DNA of 64,000 nucleotides from Amphibalanus amphitrite (lineage: Eukaryota; Arthropoda; Thecostraca; Balanomorpha; Balanidae), in contig NW_024881622.1 in NCBI RefSeq assembly GCF_019059575.1, positions 620,001 through 684,000 on the forward strand. Reading direction: 5' to 3'. The position numbers were made by a program, and so were the translations under genes. Each line of letters opens with the position of its first letter. Within the stretch, counting starts at the first letter, position 1. The notes under the pieces are model-generated. The model was not told the origin of the DNA and ran no database searches. It saw only the letters and a program-made list of their open reading frames with translations. Positions 8,139 to 11,100 of this stretch are shown here, in pieces.

Positions 8139-11100
8139 GTCAGTCAGGGACGGGGAAGGGTGAGGATTGTGTGAATGTGGCACGGGACAGAAAGAGGGAG
8201 AAGGTGACACAACATGCTGATAACGGAAGTTGCTGAAGGAAAGCTCACGCAACGACTTGAGTTTCTCCCTTATCCCTTGATTTATGATTAAGACGTGACC
8301 AACAAGCTTCGAGTTTAATTAAATCCAAACTTTTAAACCCACCTAATGTATCCCCTTGTATCTCCTCACTGAGTCGCTCCGTCGCTAGCCAATAACCACC
8401 GCACCTCCCTGGTCGCAGGTTCCCCGGCTCCGGAGATCCAGTGGCTGTACAACGGCCGGCCCCTGTCGGAGAGCTCTCACACCGTCAGCCACGTGGAGGT
8501 GGGCCGCTACTCGCTCTTCGTGCCCAGTATGAGGCAGTACGACAACGGCAACTACACGTGCGTCGGCAGGAACGGGCTGGGGGAGGTCAGCCACATGACC
8601 TACCTCGAGGCCAACGGTGAGTGGATGAGGGTTAGTGAGAGAGAATGGAAAGCATGAGTTAGTGAGATCAACAAAGTGGAGATAACATGCATGATGTGTA
8701 TGAACTCACGTCACCTCTTCCTCTCCTGATGCTTGTGTCAATGCCAGCAAAATTCCCTGGTACACAATCTTAAAGATAATCATTCTTAATTCTGCTACCA
8801 TGGTGTACCTACTTAGTAAAAAAGCCCTCCTAGTCCGGTCACCTGCCTTAAAATTGCATCCCATTTATCGTCTCAGTGACCAGACCTGACCTATGCGGGA
8901 CCTTTCCCTTGCTCTGTGAGGTACGATGCGTACTGTAACTCAATACGGTTCAGACGCTGCCCCTTGAAGTTGGCATGCTGCATATTGGGATGTTATTAGC
9001 GGCTGTGAGGGGAGGGGGCGCTGGAAGTATTCAGCATGACTTTGTTGTGTCTTGTCAGTGAACAACACTGTCTGTGGTCTCCAGTGCAGCAGCTACTTGT
9101 CCATGTTATTTTGTGGCGTGTCAGTGGGTCATTTTCTCTCGTCATAATCAATTCTTGTGAACGTGCGCCAACTCATAGGGCTTCCTCACGTCATAGTCAA
9201 CAGTTGACGACCCTGTGTCACCATCTTTACTCTTACCGTTACCACCGCTACCAAGCCAACGGTACCCTGCGCGGGCGCCCCTTGTGGCGATGGCGGCGTT
9301 GGTGGGGTTGGTGGGATCGGGTGCGCACATGTGCTGAACGGCGCACGGCGGCTCGGCTCCTTCTCAGAAGAGTATGCGGGGGAGCGGCTGTGGTGAAACT
9401 TTTGCAAGCGGTAGTTTGTGGTCTTTGGTCAGTGGTCTGAAGCTAATAGCGCTCTCGCAACGGTCACGAAGCTGAATCGTGTGGGAGGTGGCGAACGAGT
9501 GACATGTCAAAATACTAAGCTGTTCTGTTGATGTTCGAGATGTGTTGAGCTGTAAAGTGTTTCATTGTGTGATATTTAGCACTGTATCTTGTAGCGTTTT
9601 GTTGTGATGTGTGGTGTGTAACATGCTCAGACGGTTATATGGATGTGTGAAAGACTAGCTGTCAAGTATTGCGACAAGCCATTTTACTCGGAGATAGGAG
9701 AGTGTCCCATCTGCCCTTGTCCCGTGTTCATTTTAACTGTGTGCTGTGCATGTGTTGCATATATTAACCTGTCAAGTTTGACACTGTTTGTCTGCTCACC
9801 ACCCATGCATGATACCATAACGCCTTCCCTTTCGTTAGACCCTCACGCCCCACAGTTTGCCTGTGTGTGCTGTATGTACTCCCCCTACTCAGCACATTTG
9901 CGTCGTCCCCTGCCTGTCGGTCTCGCTGCCTGCTGCCTGTCGTGCTGTGCTGCCTGCTGTGCTGTGCTGTGCTGCCTGCTGTGCTGTGTGCTGACGGAGA
10001 GGCCGCCGTCGGGCGCCACCGTCGACGGTTCCAGACGCGGCCGTGCTGGTCATGCCGTGCATCGAAGAAGGCTACCCGCTCAACGTGACGGCGTTTATCG
10101 GCGAGAACGCCACGTTCGACTGTCTCGGCTCGTGGGACTGGGAGATGGATCTGTTCTGGGTGTTCTCCGAGAACAACACGGTTCACGTACGGGACCTAGC
10201 CGACATGGACCGGCTGAACCGGCAGGCGATTAACGAGAAACAGGTGAGCGCGCCGGCCGGCCGGCTGGCCCGGCCCGACCCGCCGCGGCCCGCCGACTCT
10301 GACCGACCCGCCCGTGTCCACAGCGCCGCCGCAGCCGCACCCGATCATCACGCGCGCGCCGCGTAACGTGACGCTGGTGACGGGCGAGCAGGCCAACTTT
10401 GTGTGCGAGGTGACGGCCGGGATGCACAGTCAGCTCGACTGGTACTGGTCGGCGACGGCCGCGCCCGGCGCACACGTAACCAAACTCCAGGTAGCGGGTC
10501 TGATCGCATGCTCCGCACGACTGCACGGCTCTGCACGGAACACCACGAGACGCCGAGTGACGCCACGTGGCGCACGTGTTGTAAATGGCTGGCCGAGTCC
10601 ACGAATCGCATGTCCTGTGCATGGTGTTGTTGATAGAGTTGAAGAAGGAAAAGGATTTCCAGACTTCGACTTTTTCGAAATTTCGGATGCTGACTGAGCT
10701 GGATTTCGATGTCAATTTTGTCTGCCGATTTTGCTGTTCCTGCCGCCGTGTGCTGATTTGTTCTAATGACGTCATTGGCTGGAGCTGAAGTGTACTAACC
10801 GGCTGATCTGCTGAGCCGCCAACTACCGAGCTGCTGAACTGCTGAGCCGCTGAGCCGCTGAGCTAACCCCGTCTCTAATATCGCATGTCGTGCATGGAAT
10901 GCTGAGCCGAGTTCCTGTGGGCTTTGTTCTCTGACACGCGACTAACTGGAGTGCAGTCGCTAGCTTCGTCGACTAATTCTTCGTCAGCCAGGTCGCCGAC
11001 CTCGGCTGGGTCACAGACGCCGGTCTTAGTAACCTCCGCCGGATCGGGCCATATAGCCACTTGAGCCGAGAGCTGACGTGGAGCTACCACAGCTTTTGGT

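Follow-up and report, generated by a model that had tools for sequence, protein, structure and literature searches.

The region of the third immunoglobulin domain (Ig3) of FGF receptors (FGFRs) has been described as a hotspot of recurrent alternative splicing, with earlier reports of alternative splicing in this region from the sea urchin and the red flour beetle (in the available portion of Burguera et al. 2017; PMC5703972). In the same study, a figure legend (Fig. 7) names a mutually exclusive exon IIIa in FGFR as insect-specific, and the counterpart of exons IIIb/IIIc is stated to be constitutive in all non-chordates studied. In crustaceans, two FGFR1 isoforms (A1/A2) of one gene have been reported from each of two crabs; in one of these crabs, the isoforms apparently arise by alternative splicing, and one of the crab isoforms is a partial sequence (PMC11024359, as far as the excerpt goes). 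This survey of crustacean receptors includes, in the part that is accessible, one cirriped species and no FGFR sequence from it. A partial survey of the open-access literature found no IIIa switch outside insects. The first-pass annotation of the DNA analysed here had regarded a switch in the first half of Ig3 as undescribed, which has to be withdrawn, since the insect IIIa switch is already given in the figure legend mentioned above.

Receptor gene and exon pair

The window, that is, the whole stretch of DNA that was analysed, comprises 64 kb (C125:620001-684000) of a genome that was searched in 807,550,619 bases on 2644 contigs. The genome is that of an arthropod, in keeping with at least 150 matches to the cuticle family PF00379. 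The insect odorant-binding family PF01395 had no match, in a search without a positive control, and the animal is probably not an insect, and perhaps a barnacle. PF02949, a family of insect odorant receptors, had 23 weak matches (best 64 bits), compared with 111 (best 83 bits) for PF08395, the related gustatory family; several places match both families, and the 23 are read as gustatory receptors, although they count against a non-insect origin. Queries with a barnacle cement protein and with PF11630 had no match, likewise without a positive control. The + strand of the window carries an FGF receptor gene, which encodes three Ig domains, the first two of them separated by an acidic stretch, as well as one membrane span and a tyrosine kinase of the FGFR type. 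The following features are referred to below:

7825..8138, + strand: exon with the end of Ig1, the acidic stretch and the start of Ig2 (boundaries set by eye and translated; a paralog on contig C882 has a matching exon arrangement)
8419..8616, + strand: exon U, second half of Ig2, exit phase 1, upstream partner common to A and B
10035..10243, + strand: exon A, first half of Ig3 (IIIa position), 209 bp, 69 full codons, phase 1 to 0
10244..10323, + strand: A-B intron, 80 bp (76 bp in a second copy on contig C91)
10324..10490, + strand: exon B, putative alternative first half of Ig3, 167 bp, 55 full codons, phase 1 to 0
10333..10334, + strand: cryptic AG acceptor within B; splicing of A to 10335 keeps the frame
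10506, 10608 and 10619 (span 10506..10623), + strand: three GCATG motifs within about 130 nt 3' of the B donor, all kept on C91
13344..13485, + strand: exon D, second half of Ig3, constant partner, 142 bp, phase 0 to 1
within the open frame 14377-14844, + strand: membrane span, recognized by eye
19808..20008, + strand: one of several tyrosine kinase exons of the same gene, with a PF07714 match

In its kinase motif, the window gene shares 82 of 101 defined positions with the decapod FGFR1 consensus, compared with 43 of 79 consensus positions for FGFR2 and 49 of 98 for FGFR3, as these sequences are given in the available section of the source (PMC11024359). The Ig2-Ig3 region matches Ig families in Pfam and, with either half in place, FGFR1-4 over nearly the full length in a PDB search, in which the top scores belong to Robo, an Ig protein, and lie above those of FGFR1-4. 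A long run of CT dinucleotides extends over positions 7670-7800, 5' of the exon at 7825, and the alignment with C91 breaks there too.

Exon U is left in phase 1 and exon D is entered in phase 0, so that exactly one exon with a length of 2 modulo 3 is required between them, and both A and B have such a length. The reading frame is kept by A alone or by B alone, and it is shifted when both are skipped or when A is joined to the normal acceptor of B. The two are equivalent exons with the same phases, exactly one of which keeps the frame, and this is the pattern by which a mutually exclusive pair is recognized at the level of sequence. Each of them encodes Asn-Val-Thr, Gly-Glu, a canonical Cys and a Trp strand, and the second canonical Cys is contributed by D. 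The halves differ in length (69 versus 55 codons) and in the number of glycosylation sites (three in A, one in B), and A contains an extra Cys. The donor of A fits the consensus at eight of nine positions and that of B at six of nine. These results bear out the coordinates, splice dinucleotides, phases and 80-bp spacing that the first-pass annotation had assigned to the pair, together with its description of two Ig half-domains with NVT, GE, Cys and a Trp strand, for which D supplies the second Cys. The exon lengths likewise agree with its statements that a join of A to the normal acceptor of B shifts the frame and that a join via the acceptor at 10334 does not. Its further proposal that exactly one of the two exons should be used is favoured by the frame and the phases, by the likeness of both exons to FGFR Ig3 and by the copy on C91.

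To place the pair among all comparable segments, both strands of the window were screened for open AG...GT segments of 110-260 nt in the required phase, which gave 148 candidates. An acceptor had to be preceded by 9 or more pyrimidines in 16 positions, a threshold barely reached by A, and a donor had to fit the consensus at 6 or more of 9 positions, barely reached by B. As reference we used FGFR3 IIIa from PDB entry 1ry7, chain B, cut at what we take to be the split point between IIIa and IIIc. Of the 148 candidates, those at the places of A and B obtained the highest scores, 57 and 55, respectively, and the next place has a score of 34. Neither score was reached by any of 2000 shuffles (z 9.4 for A and 7.5 for B), and a comparison of exon D with the IIIc part of FGFR3 gave a z of 16.9. 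A and B are also related to each other (protein score 52, z 8.9, 0 of 1000 shuffles); since this likeness is no greater than that of either exon to FGFR3, B is not a recent copy of A. In Pfam, exon A alone had no match up to E = 1, exon B alone matched Ig_3 at 2.9e-4, which is under the curated cut-off, and exon D alone matched I-set at 2.5e-7; when joined, A + D and B + D both match Ig families.

A second copy and a paralog

The same region is present on contig C91 with 97.4% identity across 12,747 aligned bases, and this copy is probably the other haplotype. The acceptors and donors of A and B are identical in the window and on C91. Exon A differs by five substitutions, all of which are in third codon positions and synonymous (5/5, P = 0.0019); the silent share expected in A is 28.5%, as calculated from the intron spectrum of 98 transitions and 31 transversions. 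This very probably means that A is a coding sequence under constraint. Substitutions between the two copies amount to 6.3% in the U-A intron and 1.4% in the B-D intron. Across 13344-14640, which covers exon D and the next 1154 bases, there are none, whereas upstream exons and introns differ by 1.4 to 6%; constraint on D is therefore not assessable from C91. The identity of this stretch may reflect a recent gene conversion, or else the assembly may have switched haplotypes or collapsed them here. In exon U, three adjacent differences between the copies at 8574-8576 change a Gly to a Leu in Ig2.

Another FGFR gene is located on contig C882 (L009:2815-4735, locus start 237739). In order, its exons encode the Ig1 end, the acidic stretch and Ig2, and then two pairs of half-domains, namely a first half with D1 as its second half and a further first half (A') with D2 as its second half; the half-exons have the phases 1-0-1, the same as in the window gene. 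The arrangement suggests a receptor with four Ig domains or else a choice between two whole Ig3 domains. When the whole genome was searched at the protein level, A was found at three places, namely in the window, on C91 and on C882 (39% identity, E 2e-11), and B at two places, plus one match at E 1.36; no counterpart of B was found in the C882 paralog in these protein searches. A scores 148 (z 26.6) against the first half of C882 Ig3 and 67 against that of Ig4, and D scores 102 against D1 and 73 against D2. For B, the corresponding scores are 35 with the Ig3 half and 38 with the Ig4 half, and its best partner is A (52). Since A is closest to the first half of C882 Ig3 and D is closest to D1, A and D look like the original pair. 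In the simplest reading, A + D would thus be the original Ig3, and B would have been inserted between them or kept here and lost in C882. It is also conceivable that the layout goes back to a four-Ig receptor that lost the second half of its Ig3, whereby the first halves of Ig3 and Ig4 would have become neighbours with no insertion or duplication of a IIIa exon. Indeed, the C882 order of first half, D1, first half and D2, in the same phases, gives exactly the window layout once D1 is taken away; against it stand the closeness of A to the first half of C882 Ig3 and of D to D1, as well as the scores of B, which is no closer to the Ig4 half than to the Ig3 half and resembles A most. We consider this route improbable and retain A + D as the presumed original Ig3.

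With regard to the use of the two exons, it is quite likely that the window encodes an FGFR of an arthropod, probably not an insect, whose Ig3 would combine the constant half D with either A or B as its first half. Another explanation would be that one exon alone is used, the second being a duplicate, more likely B, that is in decay or spliced only rarely. The weaker donor of B, the failure to find a B counterpart in the C882 paralog and the nature of the changes on C91, where two of three substitutions in B are replacements (Q to R and N to D), all point in this direction. B shows no sign of constraint, although three changes are too few to judge. However, B is open from end to end, has both splice sites kept on C91 and retains the Cys, the Trp and the pattern of strands, and its similarity to FGFR3 IIIa is about that of A. 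The use of one exon alone is considered unlikely. Still less credit is given to the idea that A and B are sometimes included together in frame, either through the acceptor at 10334 or by intron retention, to give an Ig3 with an extra half. The cryptic AG at 10333-10334, from which the join of A and B is in frame, is kept on C91, and a 4-bp indel shortens the A-B intron from 80 bp in the window to 76 bp on C91, so that in this copy a retained intron would join A and B into an uninterrupted frame of 311 codons. In the window copy, however, the frame with the retained intron closes at 123 codons, and a frame that differs between the copies is not a conserved feature; furthermore, with double inclusion, the partner strand for the canonical Cys of A would be missing. 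The alternative use of A and B remains the favoured reading.

Searches for additional parts of the switch were made in the first 30 kb of the window. With A, B, D, D1, A' and D2 as queries, no third alternative half was detected, all extra matches having E values of at least 0.06, and D-type queries on the + strand yielded no alternative second half of Ig3, the matches at E < 0.05 being D and the Ig2 half only. One open frame of the B-D intron had no Pfam match. Elsewhere in the genome, FGFR-like tyrosine kinases are encoded in one open frame at C53:715792-716844 (351 aa) and C542:200829-201749 (307 aa). Upstream of these kinases, no Ig half-exon was found at E 0.05 in about 61 kb on C53 and about 31 kb on C542, bar one match on the reverse strand of C542 (E 0.009), which looks like chance and was rejected. 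The two kinases are perhaps retrocopies or receptors that lost their Ig part; they had been considered as traces of transcripts, but without an Ig half-exon they are silent on which half was spliced.

Proposed use and control of the pair

From the exon phases and the sequence of the locus, we infer that A and B are used in a mutually exclusive manner in transcripts. The spliceosome would pick one of the two exons per transcript, and transcripts with both exons or with neither would be frameshifted and then lost. The short A-B intron perhaps disfavours double inclusion. Its single branch-point-like site, at 10302, lies 59 nt from the donor of A, and a distance of about 59 nt between donor and branch point is near the lower spacing limit, so that crowding may help but does not force exclusion. 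The RNA of 127 nt around the A-B intron folds no better than shuffled sequences (z 0.59; 143 of 200 fold as well), and the 80-nt intron alone folds slightly better (z -1.54; 17 of 200 shuffles as good). Four pairs of inverted repeats are present in 8617-13343, three of which are local palindromes, two of these in the A-B intron, while the fourth is inside the B-D intron. Neither the repeats of 8617-13343 nor the folds of the A-B intron yielded an RNA structure or pairing capable of enforcing exclusion.

GCAUG is the motif of Fox-1, and the cluster of GCATG motifs downstream of the B donor possibly represents candidate Fox-type sites, which we regard as a lead only; at least three GCATG motifs occur in 0.4% of 300-nt windows in the 64 kb. 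The egl-15 pair of the worm is controlled by Fox-1/ASD-1 proteins with SUP-12, according to the section of the source at hand (PMC2880598).

The choice between A and B changes the piece of the receptor that links Ig2 to Ig3 as well as the start of Ig3. By swapping this linker and the first strands of Ig3, it could produce receptors that prefer different FGFs, and an altered FGF choice, as the first-pass annotation had suggested, would be plausible or even likely. The linker between Ig2 and Ig3 and the start of Ig3 are presumably the site of FGF contacts and of the human FGFR2 Apert mutations S252W and P253R. In Tribolium, there are reportedly two FGFR isoforms that prefer different FGFs, as the title of the work by Sharma et al. 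2015 suggests, and these two isoforms would correspond to the IIIa switch.

Origin and relation to described switches

If the animal is not an insect, the IIIa event either predates the insects or arose twice. It is tempting to speculate, although we regard it as doubtful, that A and B are the insect IIIa pair by descent, that the switch was inherited from the ancestor of crustaceans and insects, and that receptor genes, once multiplied, each kept one form. The C882 paralog, which has A-type halves only, would then be a copy that kept one form, and in Drosophila the two receptor genes, which lack introns, could derive from copies of the two isoforms. If this were true, splice isoforms would have become separate receptor genes. 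Should the pair be shared beyond insects, the label 'insect-specific' would fall, and arthropods would provide a test of whether isoforms preceded separate genes. Otherwise, the same solution would have been found twice at one spot, which would strengthen the hotspot view of Burguera et al., as expressed in the available portion of their paper.

Several described systems resemble the A/B pair to different degrees. The exons 5A/5B of C. elegans EGL-15 are likewise mutually exclusive and belong to the outer part of an FGF receptor; however, the insert that they encode lies between Ig1 and the acid box, as stated in the accessible part of the source (PMC11519726), whereas A and B each encode half of Ig3 and sit between the Ig2 and Ig3 exons. 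In the FGFR of ambulacrarians, such as the sea urchin, an alternative exon of the Ig3 region is also located upstream of the IIIb/IIIc counterpart, but that exon is described, in the part of the study cited, as being without similarity to neighbouring exons (PMC5703972), whereas B is itself a first half of Ig3. The IIIb/IIIc exons of vertebrates and amphioxus share with A and B that they are mutually exclusive halves of Ig3 with the same exon boundary; the difference is that the second half alternates there and the first half here, where D is the constant second half. The roles of the two Ig3 halves are thus swapped, with the second alternating in chordates and the first in insects. Decapod FGFR1 A1/A2 is similar in having two isoforms per gene, and the kinase motif agreement of 82/101 is with this receptor, as far as the excerpt allows the comparison (PMC11024359). 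The closest likeness is to the insect IIIa switch. The latter carries the label insect-specific in the figure legend, whereas the animal studied here is probably not an insect and its pair is described from genome sequence; in both cases, alternative first halves of Ig3 precede a single constant second half. Taken together, the A/B pair is likely a further example of the insect-type IIIa switch, the range of which would thereby be extended beyond insects.
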